DNA from: Planctomycetota bacterium
Lineage (GTDB): Bacteria > Planctomycetota > Planctomycetia > Gemmatales > Gemmataceae
Reading direction: 5' to 3'
Assembly (NCBI GenBank): GCA_016191165.1
Contig: JACPPF010000161.1
Coordinates: forward strand, 1-53,862
Length of the DNA stretch: 53,862 nt
The translations under genes were made by a program, and so were the position numbers. The notes below the pieces were generated by a model. It ran no database searches, had not been told where the DNA came from, and saw nothing but the letters and a program-made list of their open reading frames with translations. Each line of letters begins with the position of its first letter. Within the stretch, counting starts at the first letter, position 1. Below, one piece after another: positions 6,869 through 19,023 of the stretch.

Positions 6869-8017
6869 ATGATGGCCTATGGATCCGTTGACCAACTTCA
6901 GAAGGCATTGACGCGGGACGTCTTCCATTATGCAAAAGATGCCAAAAAAGCGGCGGGACGCGCGCTCGGCACACTCGTGGAAATCATTACGTTCTACGCC
7001 TTGAAGGCGTGGGGGCTGGAAAAGAACGTCGCGATCGAACGGCCCTTGCCGGAGTTCGCCAATGACGACATTACACATAATGTCGAATACAGCCTTCATC
7101 CGTCGACCTCGACTGCCGAGCTCGAATTCCATCGCGACGCGCTACCTCTAACGGCGCGAAAGATCCTACGGAACAAGCAATTTGCTCCGTTTGCCATTCC
7201 TGCCGAGTCATTGAAAAAGGGAAAAACCTTGTTGAGCAAGAAGCTCATCCTCCGCAATTCGTGCAGCATCTGCGAGCTTGGGCCTATTTTTCTGAATGCG
7301 TACTTGGGCACCATGGGCGAGGACACAGGCAAATATGACGTGATGTCACTTCACCGGCGCCCATTCGCCATTTTCGAATGCAAACGCGTTGGGATCGAGG
7401 AAGGAACACGGAAGGGGCCACAGACGATCGAAAAGGCAAAACAAGGCGCCTATGTGGCACGAACGGTTTCGGCGTTGCAGAAGATCAGGCTGTCGGATGG
7501 CTCAATGGGCGGGTTCATTCAGAAACGTGACGGTGTCTTCCGGCATGGAGATTATTACGAACTGATGGCCGAAGTCATCGGCTCGAATGATCCGGATTTG
7601 CTTGCTCGCTTTATCCTCACCGTTGGTGTCGTCAGTAACCACGGAAATTGGTTCACATCCGAAAATCACAACAAGGAGTTGAAGGTGCTGGCCCAGTCTT
7701 ACGATTGGCTGCTCTTCCTGACCGACGCGGGAATCGGCCAGTTTATTGAGGAGCTTCTCTTGCACCCGGCTAAGGAGTTGGAACCGGCAAGAGAGGCTTT
7801 TCTCGCGAGTTACACGGGAAAAAAGGGCGTCAACCGGTTCACGAAGGTCAAGATTGCTCTTTCTGCGGACGCGGCATTGCAGTCTTTTTTTTCGGCCCGT
7901 ATCCAAGCCATCGAGGGCTGGTTCAATGTTATTGCTCCGCCGTCCAAGGGCCTCGCCGTTCTGAAGGAGGAATTGCAAACCTTGAGAAGCAAAAACTGGA
8001 AGGAGTTGCACAAATGA
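6869..8017 (+). CDS. Probable type II restriction endonuclease (PD-(D/E)xK)
   Basis: This protein has 382 residues. I do not recognise a named family. Asp157 (KYDV) followed by FAIFECK (Glu170, Lys172) has the spacing and hydrophobic strand of a PD-(D/E)xK nuclease core, and conserved-looking Cys residues lie at 132-135 (CSIC). The gene overlaps a Dam-family DNA adenine methyltransferase gene by 4 nt (ATGA), the arrangement expected for a type II restriction-modification pair in which this enzyme cuts unmodified DNA. The target site is unknown. The start is uncertain: two ATGs (6869, 6872) lack a good ribosome-binding site, and an overlapping 21-codon frame at 6826-6891 runs into it. Parts of the gene are visibly less GC-rich than the neighbours, which fits horizontal transfer. 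Confidence 0.7.
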   Translation: MMAYGSVDQLQKALTRDVFHYAKDAKKAAGRALGTLVEIITFYALKAWGLEKNVAIERPLPEFANDDITHNVEYSLHPSTSTAELEFHRDALPLTARKILRNKQFAPFAIPAESLKKGKTLLSKKLILRNSCSICELGPIFLNAYLGTMGEDTGKYDVMSLHRRPFAIFECKRVGIEEGTRKGPQTIEKAKQGAYVARTVSALQKIRLSDGSMGGFIQKRDGVFRHGDYYELMAEVIGSNDPDLLARFILTVGVVSNHGNWFTSENHNKELKVLAQSYDWLLFLTDAGIGQFIEELLLHPAKELEPAREAFLASYTGKKGVNRFTKVKIALSADAALQSFFSARIQAIEGWFNVIAPPSKGLAVLKEELQTLRSKNWKELHK

Positions 8018-8628
8018 CGGCTGGGCGAAAACTGAACACCCTGAGTCAGGATTGGGGAACCCCGGAAAAATACGTCAACGCCGTCCGGGCGTGCTTTGGG
8101 GGCGCCATTGACCTTGATCCCTGTTCCAACGATTACTCGATCGTGCATGCTACGACGGAATACCGCCTCCCCGAGCACGATGGCTTGCGCGACAAGTGGA
8201 ATTTCGCCACGATTTACGTAAATCCACCGTATGGCATTGACAAGGAACGCGGCAGCTCAATCAAAAAATGGCTCTCCAGGTGCGCCATGGCGCATACGGA
8301 ATACCATTCTGAGGTATTGGCGCTCGTCCCCGTGGCAACCAATACCGGGCATTGGAAAAAGTTCGTCTTTGGCGAGGCCGCGGGGCTTTGTTTTCTCTAC
8401 GATACTCGCCTCAAATTCCTAGTCAACGGTAAAAACGGCGGCCTGGGCGCCCCCATGTCCTGCGCGATGATCTACTGGGGACGGAAATACGAGACATTCC
8501 TCGCAGTGTTCAAGAGGTTCGGAGCCGTCGTGGACCTTCGCCCTTTGCAAGGACAATCCTGGGGCACCGATCTTGAAAACGGACAAGGACGGTTCCAGTT
8601 TGAACCCGACGAGGAAGATAGCTACTAA
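8014..8628 (+). CDS. DNA N6-adenine methyltransferase, phage Dam family
   Basis: This 204-residue protein resembles the phage-type Dam family (pfam05869): the N-terminal motif QDWGTPEKYVNAV, the AdoMet-linked DLDPCS (33-38), the catalytic NPPY (70-73, within VNPPYG), and an ending with GAPMSCAMIYWG. It would methylate adenine in a short target sequence, protecting it from the endonuclease encoded immediately upstream with a 4-nt overlap. Many members of this family come from phages and have no endonuclease partner, so the pairing is notable. The stop codon overlaps a possible downstream ATG (TAATG), tying the Uma2 gene to the same transcript. Confidence 0.88.
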   Translation: MTAGRKLNTLSQDWGTPEKYVNAVRACFGGAIDLDPCSNDYSIVHATTEYRLPEHDGLRDKWNFATIYVNPPYGIDKERGSSIKKWLSRCAMAHTEYHSEVLALVPVATNTGHWKKFVFGEAAGLCFLYDTRLKFLVNGKNGGLGAPMSCAMIYWGRKYETFLAVFKRFGAVVDLRPLQGQSWGTDLENGQGRFQFEPDEEDSY

Positions 8629-8711
8629 TGAATCCGCAGCTCGGCAGCCCTACCCAACATCGGCTACAACATTCAAGTCAACCACCCTTGCCTCGACGCG
8701 CAGAAAAACCC

Positions 8712-9365
8712 ATGAAAACCATCGTATTTGCAGAACACCTGACGTTCCCCGAATCCGTTCACGATCTGGAAACCTTCCGCCATTGGGTTACCTCCGATAG
8801 GTTTCCCGAAAAAGCGAGGGTGTCTTATCTCGACGGGAACTTCTGGGTGGACCTTCCCATGGAACGGCTCGGACACAACGAGTGCAAAAAGGTGATTTCC
8901 ACCGTACTGTCGGACCTGGTCGTCACGGAGAATCGCGGGCTTGATTGCCCCGATGGCATGCTGCTTTCCAACCTCGAGGCCGGTCTGTCCACGCAGCCCG
9001 AATTCATGTTCATCGCCTCGGAAAACCTTGACTCAGGACTGGTGACGATCCTACGCGGTGACGATTCGATTGAAGTAATCGGATCGCCCGACATGACGCT
9101 CGAAGTGGTCAGCCCGACTTCCGTCGAAAAAGACACCGTCACCTTGCGGCGTCTCTACTGGGAGGCGGGCGTCAAGGAATACTGGCTCGTCGATAGCCGC
9201 GAGAACACCTTCTCCTTCGACATTCTGCGGCGCGGTTCGTCGGGACCCATCGCGACCCGCAAACGGCACGGATGGATCAAGTCCCAAGTCTTCGGGCGCG
9301 AATTCAAGTTGAACCGAGAAATGACCAGGCACGGCGTTTCGAAGTTCACGCTGGATTTGCGTTGA
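8712..9365 (+). CDS. Uma2 family protein (DUF820, PD-(D/E)xK fold)
   Basis: This 217-residue member of the Uma2/DUF820 family has YLDGNFWVDLPM near the N-terminus, then PDMTLEVVSPTS, the RRLYWEAGVKEYWLVDSR block typical of the family, and a C-terminal beta region. Uma2 proteins have a restriction-enzyme-like fold and are abundant in cyanobacteria and planctomycetes; their role is not settled. The usual GxH-type motif is seen here as LGHNE. I start it at the ATG at 8712, where homology begins. An in-frame ATG at 8628 overlaps the methyltransferase stop (TAATG) and would add 28 residues of low-quality sequence. The gene converges on pyrE, 12 nt away. Confidence 0.85.
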   Translation: MKTIVFAEHLTFPESVHDLETFRHWVTSDRFPEKARVSYLDGNFWVDLPMERLGHNECKKVISTVLSDLVVTENRGLDCPDGMLLSNLEAGLSTQPEFMFIASENLDSGLVTILRGDDSIEVIGSPDMTLEVVSPTSVEKDTVTLRRLYWEAGVKEYWLVDSRENTFSFDILRRGSSGPIATRKRHGWIKSQVFGREFKLNREMTRHGVSKFTLDLR

Positions 9366-10131: not shown

Positions 10132-11412
10132 ATGAGCAAATCCACACGCACGACCATCGAAACAGGTCGTAGTTCGTTTGTCAGCTGGTTTACCTTCGTG
10201 GTCGGCGTCCCGCTCGGCGTGGGGGCGCTATATCTCGTCGAGCACGGGCCCTGGCAAAACGAGCTGGTGCAGCGCTATGTCGAGCATGAAGTCGAGAAAG
10301 CGGAAGTCGTCCTCTTCTTCTGCGCCCTCGCGATGCTGCTCGCCAAGCTCCTGATGGCCCTGCGCGAACGCTATGTCCACACCCAGCAACTTCTGCCCAG
10401 CTGGGACGGCAAGGCGATTCCCGTGAGCGAAATCTCCAAGTTGCAGCAATCGCTGGCCCTGGTCTGGGACAGCGTCAGCGGCAGTTACCTGGGCCGACGG
10501 ATTGCCAACATCCTCAACTTCGTCTCCAGCCGCGGCTCCGCGGATGAACTCGACGATCAGATGCGCACCCTGTCCGACAACGACGCCAACACGCTCGATT
10601 CCAGCTATACGCTGTTGCGCTTCATCAACTGGTCGATCCCGATCCTGGGCTTCCTCGGCACCGTCCTTGGCATCACGCAGGCGACCGCGGGAGTCACGCC
10701 CGAAAAACTTGAGACCGGCCTCAACGAGGTGACCGGCGGTCTGGCGAATGCGTTCGACTCCACCGCCCTGGCGCTCGGGTTCACCATGGTCTCGATGTTC
10801 ATCAACTTTCTTGTTGAACGCTACGAGAGCAGCCTGCTGGAGCGCGTGGACAGCTACGTCGATGCCGAGCTTTCGCATCGTTTTGTCCGGTCGCAAGTTG
10901 AAGGCGGCGGGACGGGAATGATTCCGCCGGCCTTGCAGCTGCTGCTGGAAAAACAGATCGCCGGCATGGAGCGCGCCGAACAGCGCTGGGCGCAGACCCA
11001 TGGCCCAGGCCAGCACGAAAAATGGGCCGCCGCCATGCAGCAGGCGCTTGACGCTTCACTGACGCGCTTCGGACAGCGCATCGCTGAAACGGAAAAGAAA
11101 CTGCTGGAACGCCATCAGGCGGTTCTGGATGGTCTGGCCAGCGTGGTCGTCGCGCTCCAGGAAACGGGACGCGAGCATCAAGCCGCGGTCGCCCGGCTTA
11201 CCGATGCCATCAACCTCTCCGTCGAGATGCTCGCCAAATTGCAATCCAACGAGGCGCACCTGCTGCGCTTGCAGGACGCCCTGAATCAAAACCTCGGTCT
11301 CCTGGCAAATTCGGCGACCTTCGAGCAGGCGGTGGAGAGCCTCACGGCCGCGATTCACCTGCTGTCGAGCCGCGTGAACCCGAGCCAGGCGGCAACGCTG
11401 CGGGCGGCGTGA
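10132..11412 (+). CDS. MotA/TolQ/ExbB-like proton channel protein
   Basis: This protein has 426 residues. Four membrane helices are visible at about 16-34, 57-76, 164-188 and 204-228. Helix 3 has GFLGTVLGI (173-181), matching the GxxGTVxGI signature of ExbB/TolQ/MotA. Helix 4 (NAFDSTALALGFTMVSMF) has the small and hydroxyl residues that line the channel. An extra 200-residue cytoplasmic helical tail follows. Proteins of this fold form pentamers that use proton flow to drive an ExbD-type partner. The two following genes encode single-pass proteins with ExbD-like N-termini, so the three probably form one complex. GGGAGG precedes the ATG at 10132; the frame is open upstream from a TTG. Confidence 0.88.
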   Translation: MSKSTRTTIETGRSSFVSWFTFVVGVPLGVGALYLVEHGPWQNELVQRYVEHEVEKAEVVLFFCALAMLLAKLLMALRERYVHTQQLLPSWDGKAIPVSEISKLQQSLALVWDSVSGSYLGRRIANILNFVSSRGSADELDDQMRTLSDNDANTLDSSYTLLRFINWSIPILGFLGTVLGITQATAGVTPEKLETGLNEVTGGLANAFDSTALALGFTMVSMFINFLVERYESSLLERVDSYVDAELSHRFVRSQVEGGGTGMIPPALQLLLEKQIAGMERAEQRWAQTHGPGQHEKWAAAMQQALDASLTRFGQRIAETEKKLLERHQAVLDGLASVVVALQETGREHQAAVARLTDAINLSVEMLAKLQSNEAHLLRLQDALNQNLGLLANSATFEQAVESLTAAIHLLSSRVNPSQAATLRAA

Positions 11413-11423
11413 ATCGCGTTTCC

Positions 11424-11479
11424 GCCGCATGCGGCTTTGCGCTCGCGTGACGCCATACGAACGCTAAGCCGCAAGCGGC
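11424..11479. repeat. Palindromic repeat, family A (copy 2)
   Basis: Arms 11424-11441 and 11462-11479 (CGCTAAGCCGCAAGCGGC) pair at 16 of 18 positions. The element lies between the proton-channel gene and the first ExbD-like gene, where it could form a hairpin in the shared mRNA. Confidence 0.82.
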
Positions 11480-11500
11480 TTGACATGAATTCGATCCATC

Positions 11501-13321
11501 ATGCGAAGGCCACGAACCAAACTCCAAGTGACGACCTTTCCGTTCCTCGCGGTCTTGCTCTGCGCGATGGGGTCGCTGTTGTTGTTGCTTTTCATCATGG
11601 ACCGGCGCGCAAAAATTGCCGCGCAAAACAAGGTAAACGAATCGCTGGCCAAACGCCAGGAGCGCACCAAGGCCGAGGAGGACGCACGTCAGGCGGCCTG
11701 GGAGAAGGCCAAAGCGGCGCTGCATCAAACGCTCCTGGAGCAGCAGCAAGAGTTGCTTTCGGCGTCGAAGAAAACGGGGAATCAACTCGACGACGTCGCC
11801 AAGAGTCTGGACCTCGTACAGGCTCGACATCTGGACGTGCAAGGCAAACTCAAGGACGAAAAAAACAAGATTGCCAACCTTCACTTGCAAATCCTGAGCC
11901 AGCAGGACCAGGTGCAACAATCGGCCAACAAAGAAACAGCATCCAGGGCGGAGCTGCTGGCCGCCGCCAGGGAATTGGCCGAGCTGGAGGCGGCGTTTCG
12001 GCAACTCAAGGCCCTGCGCCAGCGCGACAAGCAAACCTATTCGCTGGTTCCCTATCGCGGCAAGCTCGGCGATACGCGGGCGCCGATCTACGTTGAATGC
12101 GGACGGGACGGAATTCTCTTCCATCCAGAAAAAAAACTGTTGGAAACCTTTCGACTGACCTCCGCGGCGATCCGCGAGGAAATCGAACGCCACCACGGCC
12201 CAATCGCCACCGACCCCAAGCCGGAGGCGAAACGCAAGGACGTGAACTGGCCATACGTCCTATTTCTTATACGCCCCAGCGGCATCGACGCCTATTACAA
12301 GGCCCGAGCGCTCCTGAAGGGGCATCGCCTCGACTTTGGTTATGAACTCGTCGATGAGGACTGGGCCCTGGACTTCAGCGATTCAGGAAAGACCAAGCAG
12401 GCGGCGTCAAGCAGACCGGGGCCGGCGTCGCCTTCAGGTGTCACGCTGGAATTCCCGGCTCTGCCCAGACCGGGCGGCGAGGGCGGGCCGTTCAAGAACG
12501 GCGGCGGCTTGGGGAAGGGCCCCTTCACGTCGCCGGCTCTAACCCCCGGGGGTCAAAATGGCAAAGGCCTCGCGATGCAACCGCTCGCACCGTCGTCTGG
12601 CGGAATGGTAGGCCAAAACGCGGGATCAGGAAATTTTCGTATCACCCCGCCGAGCCTCGAGCCGCCGTTGCCTCGCACCGGGACCGTGCCCCCTGGGCCC
12701 AACCAGGGGCCGTCCTTCGCGCCGATTGCGAAGACCGGCCCGCCGGTAGCCATCGCGTCATCCGGGCAAAACGCGCCCCCCGCGCTGAACCCGGCGCTGA
12801 TGCCTCGCATCAATTCACTCGGAGTCAAGCCCGGCGCTAACCAGCAAGAGGGAGGGCCGAAAGCCAATCCGGATGCCAGGCCAGGTGGGTCGCAGCAAAC
12901 GAACGATGCGAAACCCGATCCGAACGGTCAAGCACCGACGCCGGGCTCGCAGGGCGAACCGGGGTCGCCGTCGCGTTCCGGCTTCGGACCGAAGCGAAAG
13001 CCGGCGCCGCCCAGCCGAGCCATCGGCAATCGCGACTTCGTCATCACCATCGAATGCGACAGCGACGCCGTCCTCGTCACCCCGGGAAGTTTGATTTTCC
13101 GTTGGTCCACAAGCGATGTGAGAATGGTGGACCGCGCCCTGGTGCAGTCGGTCGGCAGCCTGATCGCGCGCAGGCAAAAATCGGTCCGCCCTGGCGACCC
13201 GCCCTATCGCCCGGTAATCCGCTTTCTCGTCTCGCGCGAGGGCCTGCGAACCTACTACCACGTTTACCCACTCCTGGAATCGTTGCGCGTGCCAATGACG
13301 CGAGAGAACATTGAGGAATAG
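11501..13321 (+). CDS. ExbD-like single-pass protein with duplicated periplasmic module
   Basis: This protein has 606 residues. A short basic N-terminus precedes one helix (about 13-33, FPFLAVLLCAMGSLLLLLFI) with the outline of the ExbD/TolR helix (PFIDV...), but Ala17 stands where ExbD has its essential Asp. Then come a long coiled coil (about 35-180), module 1 (about 197-287, APIYVEC...VLFLIRPSGIDAYYKA), a Pro/Gly-rich linker of some 200 residues, and module 2 (about 511-606, VITIEC...IRFLVSREGLRTYYH). The modules share the pattern [IV]EC, a strand, then [FL]-x-V/I-x-x-x-G-[IL]-x-x-YY. The next gene has a related module. It lies downstream of the ExbB-like channel gene, with a repeat between them. 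A force-transmitting role is inferred. Confidence 0.8.
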   Translation: MRRPRTKLQVTTFPFLAVLLCAMGSLLLLLFIMDRRAKIAAQNKVNESLAKRQERTKAEEDARQAAWEKAKAALHQTLLEQQQELLSASKKTGNQLDDVAKSLDLVQARHLDVQGKLKDEKNKIANLHLQILSQQDQVQQSANKETASRAELLAAARELAELEAAFRQLKALRQRDKQTYSLVPYRGKLGDTRAPIYVECGRDGILFHPEKKLLETFRLTSAAIREEIERHHGPIATDPKPEAKRKDVNWPYVLFLIRPSGIDAYYKARALLKGHRLDFGYELVDEDWALDFSDSGKTKQAASSRPGPASPSGVTLEFPALPRPGGEGGPFKNGGGLGKGPFTSPALTPGGQNGKGLAMQPLAPSSGGMVGQNAGSGNFRITPPSLEPPLPRTGTVPPGPNQGPSFAPIAKTGPPVAIASSGQNAPPALNPALMPRINSLGVKPGANQQEGGPKANPDARPGGSQQTNDAKPDPNGQAPTPGSQGEPGSPSRSGFGPKRKPAPPSRAIGNRDFVITIECDSDAVLVTPGSLIFRWSTSDVRMVDRALVQSVGSLIARRQKSVRPGDPPYRPVIRFLVSREGLRTYYHVYPLLESLRVPMTRENIEE

Positions 13322-13326
13322 CACAA

Positions 13327-13382
13327 GCCGCTTGCGGTTTAGCGAACGCATGGCGCCGCGCGAACGCTAAGCCGCAAGCGGC
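13327..13382. repeat. Palindromic repeat, family A (copy 3)
   Basis: Arms 13327-13344 (GCCGCTTGCGGTTTAGCG) and 13365-13382 pair at 17 of 18 positions around 20 nt. It starts 5 nt after the stop codon of the 606-residue protein gene and ends 15 nt before the next start, filling the intercistronic gap. Confidence 0.87.
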
Positions 13383-13397
13383 CTGCACGAGGAGACC

Positions 13398-14453
13398 ATG
13401 TTCCGCCGCCGCAGACCACCGAAGGGCGATTCGATCAGCTTCGGCTTCGATTCGTTCCTGGATCTGGTGACGAATGTCGTCGGGATCATCATCCGGCTCA
13501 TTCTGGTCACCTGGGTCGGCGCGCGCTCGTATCATGCCTCGATGCAATGGATGGAGGTCGAACCGGAACAAAAATCCATGCCGGCGCCAAAATTGGTGGA
13601 CGACCCGCTGCACGCCCGCCTTCAACAAGCCAAGAACGATCTCGACGACGCCAAGACGCGCCTGCTCGCTCAGCTCAAATACCTTGAGGCGACCAAGCAA
13701 AAAGACGGACTGGCCGAACAGCAACTTTACCTGCTGGCGAGTCGCCGCGCCGAGTTGGAAGCCGAGCGCGACAAGCTGGCGAAAAAGGCGGCGGGCAACG
13801 GCACGGTTCTCCAGACAAGCGTTTCGCTGGCGCAGATTCGCCAGCGCTCGCGGAAGTTGCTGGACGATCTGAAGAAGCTTGAAGCGTTGCCACCGCTCAA
13901 GAAGCAGTTGAAGTATCACGCGCCGCTAAGCAAGGCGGTTCATAGCGACGAGTTGTTTTTCGAGTGCAAGGCAGGCCGGGTGGCGTTCATCGACTTGCCG
14001 GCGTTCCTGCAAGAGATCAAGCTGTCGCTGGAAGAAATCGCGGGCGAGTTGAAGGCGACGTTTCGCGTGGAGCGCCGCACCGCGCCGGCTGGCCCGTTTC
14101 GACTGCGCTATGTAATCGAACGCGAACGCACCATTCAGGACGTGGGCGCCACCCCGGCGGCGACGAGCTACCGATATGGTTTATCCGAGTGGGTCGTCGA
14201 GCCGATCGCCGGCCAGCGCGGGGAGAACTTGAAACAGGCGCTGGCCGCCAATTCCGAATTCCGCCAGCTGACCGACAACCTGGATTCGCGCATCACGGTG
14301 GTCACCTTCTGGGTCTATCCCGACAGCTTCGATTTGTTTCGCCAACTACGCGACCATCTTTACGAGCGGGGCCACAACATCGCCGGCCGCCCGTTGACGC
14401 CGGATGCGCCGATCGCCGCGTCCAGAAACGGCACCGCCTCGCGCGGGCAGTAG
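13398..14453 (+). CDS. ExbD-like single-pass protein with membrane Asp
   Basis: This protein has 351 residues. A basic N-terminus (MFRRRRPPKG) leads into one helix, FDSFLDLVTNVVGIIIRLIL (17-36). Asp22 in FLDLV falls where ExbD/TolR have the protonatable Asp (FIDV), and Arg33 lies inside the helix, which is unusual. A coiled coil (about 65-165) connects to a periplasmic module (about 185-333, ELFFEC...VTFWVYPDSFDLFRQLR) related to the two modules of the preceding protein. The ATG follows GAGGAG. It ends a three-gene unit with the ExbB-like channel protein. Role, partner and load are unknown. A Tol-, Gld- or Zorya-like proton-driven engine is the closest analogy, although no peptidoglycan-binding OmpA domain is present. 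Confidence 0.82.
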   Translation: MFRRRRPPKGDSISFGFDSFLDLVTNVVGIIIRLILVTWVGARSYHASMQWMEVEPEQKSMPAPKLVDDPLHARLQQAKNDLDDAKTRLLAQLKYLEATKQKDGLAEQQLYLLASRRAELEAERDKLAKKAAGNGTVLQTSVSLAQIRQRSRKLLDDLKKLEALPPLKKQLKYHAPLSKAVHSDELFFECKAGRVAFIDLPAFLQEIKLSLEEIAGELKATFRVERRTAPAGPFRLRYVIERERTIQDVGATPAATSYRYGLSEWVVEPIAGQRGENLKQALAANSEFRQLTDNLDSRITVVTFWVYPDSFDLFRQLRDHLYERGHNIAGRPLTPDAPIAASRNGTASRGQ

Positions 14454-16503: not shown

Positions 16504-17531
16504 TACCAGGTGATCCGATAGAGCATCCAGTAAACCACAACCCCGGTCACCGACACATAGAGCCAGATCGGCAGCGTCCAGCGCGCGAGCTTGACGTGAA
16601 TGCGGCGAGCGTCGCGCAGGCCCTGAATCGTGACCGTCAATGCCAATGGCGCGACGGCCATCGCCAGCACCGTGTGCGACAGCAGAATCGCGAAATAGGC
16701 GTAGCGTGCCGCCCCCTGACCCTGGAAGCGCATCGGCTCCATGTCCAGGACAACGAAATGATAGAACAGATAGCTCGAAAGAAAAATTATCGACACCGCC
16801 AGCGCGAGCAGCATGACGAGCTTGTGCAGCGTCTCCAGCCGCAGGCGAATCAAGATCCATCCCAGCAGCAGCAGGACGGTGCAGGTTGAATTCAGAATCG
16901 CATTGAACCAGGGCAAGTCGGCGCCCGTGATCGGAATGCGCTCCTCCATCCGGCGGCGCGCACGCAGGCGATCGATCTCGGCCGTCAAGACCTCCGCGGC
17001 CCTGGGCTCCACGCCGTTGACGTAACCGACCATCGTGCCCGAGCCGTCGATCAGGATCAGAAATGTGGAATGCTGAATCTCGTTGCCGACCGGCGCGTTT
17101 TTCAGTGGCAGCACCATGTTGAAAAAGCTCGTCTCGACGATGGCGTGAACTTTTTTTTGCGGTCCGGTCAGGAAAAGCCACTGGTCGGCGTCGGCCTGGT
17201 GATCGTCGGCGAACTCGTTGAGCGTTTTGACACCGACGTCGATGAGATCGATGCTGACCAGGCGCACGTCGGGTTTGCCGCGGAAGTGTTCTTGTAGCTT
17301 CTGCATGGTGGGGGTATTGCGGCTGCACAGGTTGCAGCCGGGGTAGAAGAACTGGGCGACCCAGATTTTGCCCAACAGGTCGCGTGCGCGGACTGTCTTG
17401 CCAGAGCGCTCCGTCAGCGTGAAATCGCCGACGGGCTGGTCGAATGGCTTGAACAGGATGTCGGAAGGCGGCGCCTGGGCCAGGACCGGCTGCGCGAGAA
17501 GGGCGAGCAAAAGGAACGGGAACCAGCGCAT
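16503..17531 (-). CDS. Sco1/SenC-DUF420 (CtaM-like) fusion, oxidase copper assembly
   Basis: This 342-residue protein has two parts. After a signal peptide (FPFLLLALLAQPVLA), a thioredoxin-fold Sco/SenC domain (about 25-190) carries GCNLC (Cys66, Cys69) and His154 in IQHSTFLILIDG, the copper-ligand positions of Sco proteins. Cys spacing is CxxC rather than the usual CxxxC. From about 203, a four-helix DUF420 domain follows (LPWFNAILNSTCTVL, SSYLFYHF, ILLSHTVLAMAVAPL, PIWLYVSVTGVVVY). Sco proteins help build CuA; DUF420 proteins (CtaM/YozB) are needed for aa3-type oxidase maturation in Firmicutes. One protein may thus serve both copper centres. It is last in the oxidase operon. The start at 17531 is chosen for the signal peptide. 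Confidence 0.88.
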   Translation of the reverse strand: MRWFPFLLLALLAQPVLAQAPPSDILFKPFDQPVGDFTLTERSGKTVRARDLLGKIWVAQFFYPGCNLCSRNTPTMQKLQEHFRGKPDVRLVSIDLIDVGVKTLNEFADDHQADADQWLFLTGPQKKVHAIVETSFFNMVLPLKNAPVGNEIQHSTFLILIDGSGTMVGYVNGVEPRAAEVLTAEIDRLRARRRMEERIPITGADLPWFNAILNSTCTVLLLLGWILIRLRLETLHKLVMLLALAVSIIFLSSYLFYHFVVLDMEPMRFQGQGAARYAYFAILLSHTVLAMAVAPLALTVTIQGLRDARRIHVKLARWTLPIWLYVSVTGVVVYWMLYRITW

Positions 17532-17559
17532 GGTACGGTGCTCGCGGAAAGTGCCGCAC

Positions 17560-17590
17560 GCCCCAGGAATCGCTGCGCTCATCCTGGGGC
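17560..17590. repeat. Hairpin repeat, family D (copy 1)
   Basis: Stem GCCCCAGGA (17560-17568) / TCCTGGGGC (17582-17590), a perfect 9 bp, around the 13-nt loop ATCGCTGCGCTCA. It lies between the ctaF stop and the Sco-DUF420 start. The same loop occurs at 18050-18062 and, with one change, at 23988-24000. Confidence 0.88.
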
Positions 17591-17596
17591 TTTCGG

Positions 17597-18019
17597 TCAT
17601 TTTTGGACAATCATCGGAACGGCGCTTTCCGGATAGGCGTGCCAGGCCAGGGCCGCGTCGATGGAGAGGATGATCACCATCATCACCGTCACGACGCACA
17701 CGGGCAGGATGATGCAGTAGAGCTTGCCCCAGTCGAATTTCAGGTGCATGAAGATGGCCGCGACCAGCGTCGCCTTGACGACGGCGACGGCCATGATGAT
17801 CGCGGCGCCGGTGTGGTTGTTTTCGCCGAAGATTCGGTTGATGACAAACGAAAGCCCGGTGCAGACGCACAGGGCGAAGAAGACATACATGTACATCTGA
17901 AAGCTCGGCCCGGCGTGGCCGTGTTCGCCGCCACTCGCTGCTGGCGGCGTTGCGGAGAACTGGCCGCCTGGAGCGGCGGGCAGGCCGGGGGCGATGTTTT
18001 CGCTTTGGGGATCCGACAT
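17597..18019 (-). CDS. ctaF: Cytochrome c oxidase subunit IV, bacterial type
   Basis: This 140-residue protein has a Gly/Ala/Pro-rich N-terminus (about 1-38) followed by three membrane helices: MYMYVFFALCVCTGLSFVI, GAAIIMAVAVVKATLVAAIF and LYCIILPVCVVTVMMVIIL. The pattern AVVKATLVAAIFMHLKFD matches the bacterial COX4 family (pfam03626), a small accessory subunit of caa3/aa3 oxidases in the cytoplasmic membrane. It sits between ctaE and the Sco-DUF420 gene, with a hairpin repeat in each gap. Confidence 0.92.
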   Translation of the reverse strand: MSDPQSENIAPGLPAAPGGQFSATPPAASGGEHGHAGPSFQMYMYVFFALCVCTGLSFVINRIFGENNHTGAAIIMAVAVVKATLVAAIFMHLKFDWGKLYCIILPVCVVTVMMVIILSIDAALAWHAYPESAVPMIVQK

Positions 18020-18041
18020 GGGGTCTTCCTTTGCAAACTAC

Positions 18042-18070
18042 CCCCGCCAATCGCTGCGCTCATGGCGGGG
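18042..18070. repeat. Hairpin repeat, family D (copy 2)
   Basis: Stem CCCCGCCA (18042-18049) / TGGCGGGG (18063-18070), a perfect 8 bp, around ATCGCTGCGCTCA. The loop is identical to copy 1 while the stem differs on both sides together. It lies between ctaE and ctaF. Confidence 0.88.
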
Positions 18071-18081
18071 CTTGGCAAACT

Positions 18082-19023
18082 CTATACAAGGTACAACAGA
18101 GGGAACAGGAAAATCCAGACGATATCGACGAAGTGCCAGTACAGGCCCGTCAGCTCGATGCCCAGCTCGTTGTCCGGGCCGAACTTGCCGAAGAGAGCGC
18201 CGATCAGGTAGATTCCGAATACAACGAGCCCGCCGAAAACGTGCAGGGCGTGAAAGCCCGTCATCGCGAAATACGACGACGCCCACAGGTTGCCATAGGG
18301 AATCGAGTAGGACAGGTGAACATTCGGATCGACTTCGAGGATGCCCCTAACCTTGGCGGCGCCGCTTTCCCGTTTCGGCATATCACACTTCTTGAGCTTG
18401 TCGGTGCCGACGATGCGCTCGTTGACTTCCTTGGGGGACAGCTTGCCGGCGTTGATCTCGTCGAGCAAGTCCTTGCACATCTTCTTGGCGTCCGCGCTGA
18501 TGTGGCCGTCGTGGTCGGCATGTTTGAGTTGCTCCTGGACGTGCCGAACGAATTTGTAATTCTGCGGCGAGTCGTCGTTTTTCAGCTCAAACACGCGGCC
18601 CGGCAGGATTTCATGCTCGATCTTGGCCTTGTACTCGACCGCCTTGACGCCGAGGAACACGCAGCCCAGGGCCAGCGTAATGCCCAGGTACATCGTCGCC
18701 TTTTTGGTGAACGCTTGCTTCGCCGCGGCATCGGCAGACTTGCGCGCCTCGTGAAGGCACCAGTGGCACAACACGACGGTCAAGCTGGAGCAGATCAGGA
18801 CGAAGGTGTTCAACGCGCCGATCCACTCGACCAGATGCACGTCATGCGGGCTGGGCCACGGCGTCGCCGCGGTGGGCTGGCCGTTGCGCAGGAGCATGTA
18901 GGTGCCGATGATGGCGGTGAAGAAGGTGATTTCCGTCACCAGGAATATCCACAGCGCGAGCTTGCCGTTGGGCAACGGCAGGCCCATGTGAAGTTCCGAG
19001 TTCTCAGCGACGTCGTGTGCCAT
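18082..19023 (-). CDS. ctaE: Cytochrome c oxidase subunit III with soluble insertion
   Basis: This 313-residue subunit III of the heme-copper oxidase starts with [19 protein letters not shown], has [10 protein letters not shown] near 126-135, and ends with [20 protein letters not shown] and [19 protein letters not shown], all family features. Between the VKAVEY helix and the last helices lies an extra charged stretch of about 100 residues (roughly 138-240), rich in Lys, Asp and Glu with Cys183 and Cys213, absent from the usual subunit of about 200 residues. The insertion would face the outer side and may contact another subunit. It is preceded by ctaB and followed by ctaF. Confidence 0.94.

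Follow-up and report, generated by a model that had tools for sequence, protein, structure and literature searches.

An unequal pair of arms, with the membrane-helix aspartate conserved in one, in a planctomycete system of the MotA/TolQ/ExbB class

In models of 5:2 motors two identical acids are used and a proton is swapped every 36 degrees. The arrangements that are already known comprise 5:2 motors in which the arms are of a single kind, AglRQS of Myxococcus, in which one channel protein is accompanied by two MotB-like proteins (AglQ and AglS) that were both described with an aspartate (PMC9389320), and PVC clusters that combine a vWA transducer with a tolR-like heterologous pair (PMC12204202). 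Whether the two MotB-like proteins of AglRQS form a heterodimer or a homodimer was left undecided (PMC9389320). The available part of PMC12204202 also gives an Asp in each monomer of the TPH-vWA proteins, the other heterologous-pair family, and its description of the PVC cluster makes no mention of Asp loss in one arm. Such a loss was not found in the open-licence literature searched.

The locus analysed here lies in a window of 53,862 nucleotides from a Planctomycetota bacterium and consists of three open reading frames, for which the coordinates given in the first-pass annotation were correct (Table 1). The locus resembles ExbB-ExbD and TolQ-TolR, both 5:2 motors, in having a PF01618 channel with conserved threonines and a single-pass partner with a mid-membrane Asp, but it has two unlike partners with Asp in one only, long stalks, periplasmic domains without a match to PF02472 or a solved fold, and no adjacent TonB/TolA gene. 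With AglRQS it shares the single channel protein and the two MotB-like proteins; however, where AglRQS-type systems have Asp in both arms, the second arm of the window type carried Ala, Ser or Thr at 66 of 66 loci. The PVC cluster (tolQ, tolR pair, TPR and vWA) is likewise a planctomycete-type operon, in which one channel gene accompanies two dissimilar arm genes, but the window operon has no adjoining vWA gene downstream or TPR gene upstream. Zorya ZorA-ZorB has a channel of the 5:2 class with a cytoplasmic tail and a partner helix in the pore, as the window system probably does, whereas an OmpA-like domain is absent from both window arms and no ZorC, ZorD or ZorE gene was present among the ten neighbours scanned. 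No OmpA family match was found in either arm or among the families listed for the relatives of the arms, which sets the system apart from MotAB stators. The earlier annotation had likewise reported no OmpA, TonB or ZorC/D-like partner.

Table 1. Features of the three-gene operon, in window coordinates.
Feature	Position	Strand	Basis or remark
Channel subunit, 426 aa, MotA/TolQ/ExbB family	10132..11412	+	PF01618, E 3.9e-10; orthologues in 22 relatives
FLGTVLGI, hydrophobic helix 3, with Thr177	10651..10674	+	Thr177 invariant across the wider channel family
AFDSTALAL, hydrophobic helix 4, with Thr211 (invariant)	10750..10776	+	
Ala arm (putative passive arm), 606 aa	11501..13321	+	
Ala-arm membrane helix; Ala17 in place of Asp (11549-11551)	11540..11602	+	
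Ala-arm stalk, single predicted helix that continues the membrane helix without a break (residues 14-175)	11603..12025	+	AlphaFold2 model
Ala-arm periplasmic domain 1, residues 196-291	12086..12373	+	AlphaFold2; homologous to domain 2
Ala-arm disordered Pro/Gly-rich linker, residues 296-508, 215 aa	12386..13024	+	pLDDT mostly <55
Ala-arm periplasmic domain 2, duplicate of domain 1, residues 512-603	13034..13309	+	AlphaFold2 and profile alignment
Asp arm (putative proton-carrying arm), 351 aa	13398..14453	+	
Asp-arm membrane helix, residues 17-48; Asp22 (13461-13463), invariant	13446..13541	+	
Asp-arm stalk, two predicted helices, to residue 163	13605..13886	+	
Asp-arm periplasmic domain, with insertion	13950..14423	+	

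The channel protein contained four hydrophobic helices followed by a C-terminal helical tail and scored 40 bits against the Pfam profile PF01618, for which the curated cut-off is 22.9. The motif GFLGTVLGI was located in the third of the four helices, as annotated. The pore-helix threonines, in the GTV of helix 3 and in AFxxT, were invariant in 19 channels, consistent with the MotA/TolQ/ExbB family. The residue two positions before Thr211 was Asp at 61 of 66 loci, and this position is also acidic in related Asp/Asp and single-arm systems. Compensation for the lost arm Asp by this channel acid (AFD/AFE) was considered and rejected, because AFD/AFE occurs in the single-arm and Asp/Asp systems as well. 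An overlap of exactly 4 bp between the channel and Ala-arm genes was present in 37 of 56 loci, suggesting coupled translation. In the window, both gaps of the operon (11424-11479 and 13327-13382) hold inverted pairs of a REP/BIME-like palindrome (GAACGCTAAGCCGCAAGCGGC), of which the 7.2-Mb genome has 94 copies when up to one mismatch is allowed, compared with 0 for the reversed control.

The two arm proteins had been annotated as ExbD-like, with an Asp in the membrane helix of one and an Ala at the corresponding place in the other. Both residue assignments were confirmed. In the 351-aa protein the sequence FLDLV gives Asp22, which was invariant in 74 family members, so that this arm has the single N-terminal helix and essential Asp of ExbD/TolR. 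In the 606-aa protein FPFLAV gives Ala17 at the homologous position; among 57 family members the helix was present, the Asp was absent and Ala17 occurred in at least 90%. Profile-profile alignment of the N-terminal helices placed FLA on FLD, and thus Ala17 on Asp22, with a probability of 85%. Over positions 1-19 of the Ala-arm helix acidic, basic and His residues were all absent from 66 loci, and the rest of the positions were as conserved as those of the Asp-arm helix. The preferred reading of the Ala arm is a pore helix from which the proton site has been lost while the other positions remained fixed. The likeness to ExbD is one of topology and motif: PF02472 was not among the matches listed for either window arm or among the families shown for the 74 and 57 members, and comparison of the arms with ExbDs of the same genomes using hhalign gave <2%. 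In the arm domains strands and helices were predicted in an order compatible with ExbD/TolR, a likeness in order only. Searches with the AlphaFold2 models of the arms using Foldseek and VIA-align gave no convincing fold match, the absence of ExbD from the match lists being uninformative, and sequence searches of solved structures with both arms returned essentially coiled-coil matches only.

In the Asp arm a flexible Pro-containing stretch (residues 49-69) separates the membrane helix from the stalk, and a Pro follows the membrane helix in 60/66 Asp arms compared with 20/66 Ala arms. At 25 of 66 loci, the window among them (13494-13496, Asp +11), a basic residue (Arg or Lys) is found within the Asp-arm membrane helix. 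The Asp arm ends in a tail, AGRPLxxGxPIAxSxxGTxSRGQ (window 14380-14450), that is near-invariant up to the final residue, which suggests a binding site. The two Ala-arm domains, a duplication absent from the earlier annotation, were homologous with a probability of 98.6% by profile-profile alignment, and the linker between them ranged from 32 to 582 residues among relatives. Since two homologous domains are joined by a Pro/Gly linker, a TonB-like reach may be built into the Ala arm, and the long disordered linker and paired domains may be able to carry a load by themselves.

The conservation of the unequal pair was examined in two sets of loci. Starting from the channel, a search of 40 relatives yielded 22 more operons, and the three genes stood in the identical order wherever a contig end did not truncate the locus. 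The second arm carried Ala in 19, Ser in 2 and Thr in 1, never an acidic residue, and the third arm carried Asp in 19/19, counts that are free of the seed bias of the second set. The second set, obtained with the Asp arm as query, contained 80 named loci (352 relatives detected) from Gemmataceae and other Planctomycetota; it is biased for the Asp arm and unbiased for the Ala arm, because one of its two seed patterns includes Asp. The 66 complete triples of the combined sets had Asp in every Asp arm, and Ala (62), Ser (2) or Thr (2) in the other. The asymmetry proposed in the first-pass annotation is conserved among homologues, as is the association of both arm genes with the channel gene, in the same order across relatives; recurring in all complete relatives, the pattern is not due to chance. 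Homologues of the 606-aa protein bearing an Asp were looked for and were absent apart from one locus, L114, the sole one of its kind, where the second arm reads FTFLDV. The channel gene was not found beside this arm gene, and no channel of the window's family was found in the 4.5-Mb assembly, which may be incomplete. A gap of ~1.4 kb (L114 2069-3486) lies between a queD-like gene and the arm gene, at the expected place of the channel gene.

Of 197 genomes sampled across the phylum, strong orthologues were confined to the window's class, in which 12 of 13 members had strong matches to both channel and Asp arm and the thirteenth had neither; outside the class G217 has paralogous systems. Presence in 12 of the 13 class genomes does not resemble the distribution of a mobile defence system, though the operon is patchy in the window's own family (13/24). 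On the aligned residues, an unequal pair of one arm with the proton-carrying acid and one without it is kept class-wide.

The surroundings of the operon were searched for a load. On the opposite strand the window operon is flanked by a phosphoribosyltransferase gene upstream and a mechanosensitive channel (MscS) gene downstream. No conserved load gene was found among the neighbours of 80 loci; the largest neighbour family occurred at only 12 of the 80 and was apparently lineage-bound, and a conserved neighbour as load was rejected. A function in defence was also rejected, with weak ZorA matches only (PADLOC; ZorA2 model against the channel, E 3.6e-6, the best stretch confined to the channel region) and no Zorya effector nearby. 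Upstream, window 6869-9365 contains a row of genes for a 382-aa protein that matches no Pfam family, a Dam methyltransferase of phage type (PF05869) and a protein resembling Uma2 nucleases, possibly a small restriction or mobile-element cassette. Downstream, the opposite strand of window 16506-19023 gave Pfam matches to COX3 (cytochrome oxidase subunit III), COX4_pro, SCO1/SenC and DUF420.

If the two arms share one axle, their stalk lengths are expected to keep pace. Across 66 loci the stalk lengths co-varied with a rho of 0.84, and phylogenetically independent contrasts gave an r of 0.58 (p 0.0001, 20,000 permutations). Controls measured against the Ala-arm stalk (disordered linker, domains and channel tail) had no such length tie, and the tie between the Asp-arm stalk (stalk 3) and linker length was weak (r 0.27, p 0.04). 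The test depends on a channel tree built with FastTree and on anchor positions taken from alignments in which the proteins are divergent. A common width of the periplasm could give the same co-variation, and the mixed axle is therefore supported rather than proven. The co-variation is a first, sequence-based indication that two MotB-like proteins can form heterodimers. The first-pass annotation had suggested a heterodimer with one proton-coupled arm; the Asp/Ala split, the co-conservation and the co-varying stalks all favour the pairing, while we infer the coupling through one arm.

Three-gene systems that match the window in gene order and have channel and arm helices related to its own (L164, L167-L169, L171-L173, L175, L177, L186, L188) fell into type B, with Ser/Asp, and type C, with Asp/Asp. 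They differ from the window in a shorter second arm, ~260-295 aa in those with an unambiguous start, with Ser or Asp in place of Ala. The residue was Ser in type B (L164, L166-L169, L172, L173, L175, L184, L185) and also at L174 and L192, and Asp in type C (L171, L177, L186, L188). The third arm carried Asp wherever it was found; for type B in G038, G102 and G202 the Asp arm was not found beside the channel, and G038 and G202 have an Asp-arm relative at a separate locus. Ordinary ExbD pairs of the same genomes have Asp in both members. Relatives of only two genes, for a channel and one ~500-aa arm with Asp (FSISFIDVFCCALG), were located at L194 4160-5602, L197 5698-7236 and L198 2831-4321, in planctomycete genomes outside the window's class; the single-arm systems with Asp comprise L194 and L197-L199.

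In an unrooted channel tree the window type formed one clade of 27 rows (support 100/99), all with a non-acidic second arm, and type B formed another of 10 rows (100/98), all with Ser. The sister of type B was the Asp/Asp type C (100/100), the join being weaker (92/81). As the tree is unrooted, a double loss of Asp holds if Asp is ancestral. The outgroup second arms with Asp (L171, L177, L186, L188) suggest that the Ala-arm helix descends from a proton-carrying type, and one arm has probably lost the Asp and retained the remainder of the helix.

As judged from these sequences, a PF01618 channel is co-inherited with two arms that have homologous membrane helices, and one Asp and the pore threonines are conserved. 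We consider it rather probable that the operon encodes a motor of the MotA/ExbB/TolQ class that is driven by protons and whose axle is mixed, with one Asp arm and one Ala arm. Five channel subunits would enclose the two arms, and protons would pass by Asp22 of the 351-aa arm alone, past a ring of threonines (Thr177, Thr211). One proton site in the axle would require five proton uptakes per turn and not ten, so that rotation would proceed in 72-degree steps with five proton events per turn. The Ala arm would act as a structural partner that completes and steadies the axle and, because of its unbroken stalk, two homologous domains and long Pro/Gly linker, would be the likeliest part to extend as far as the cell wall or outer membrane, serving as an anchor or lever.

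The same genes could instead give two homodimers, the channel working with that of the Asp arm while that of the Ala arm forms an idle or regulatory complex. Homodimers were likewise left open for AglRQ and AglRS, with the dimer type of AglRQS undecided (PMC9389320), and an Asp-arm relative at a separate locus in some type B genomes would suit them, but the stalk lengths co-vary, the gene order is fixed with its 4-bp overlap, and the helix is strictly conserved in a protein whose homodimer would have no proton site; we regard this arrangement as unlikely. The membrane helix, long disordered linker and end domain of the Ala arm are also the layout of TonB, and the arm might be a TonB/TolA-like transducer on the outside of a pentamer with an Asp-arm homodimer as axle. 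Transducers bind the motor edge through an SHLS/His motif (PMC12204202), whereas the Ala-arm helix has no His, is homologous to the Asp-arm helix and has outgroup counterparts that bear Asp, and a transducer appears quite improbable. A channel or sensor without rotation, in which the proton site serves gating or signalling only, would accord with the lack of a load gene nearby, but the Asp and the threonines of both pore helices are kept as in force-generating relatives, making this very improbable indeed.

With a mixed axle of one Asp arm and one Ala arm, the system would be a natural 5:1:1 rotary motor that has a single axle proton site, moves in 72-degree steps at five protons per turn and lies outside the two-site turnstile model of 5:2 motors, having arisen when one arm lost its Asp, in two or more lineages (the Ala and Ser types) if Asp is ancestral. 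We put forward this fuller account tentatively, at somewhat less than an even chance. If it is true, a one-acid motor kept class-wide, together with its two-acid relatives, would make the need for one or two acids testable without engineered hybrids, and since the arms are genetically distinguishable each half of the axle could be mutated alone.
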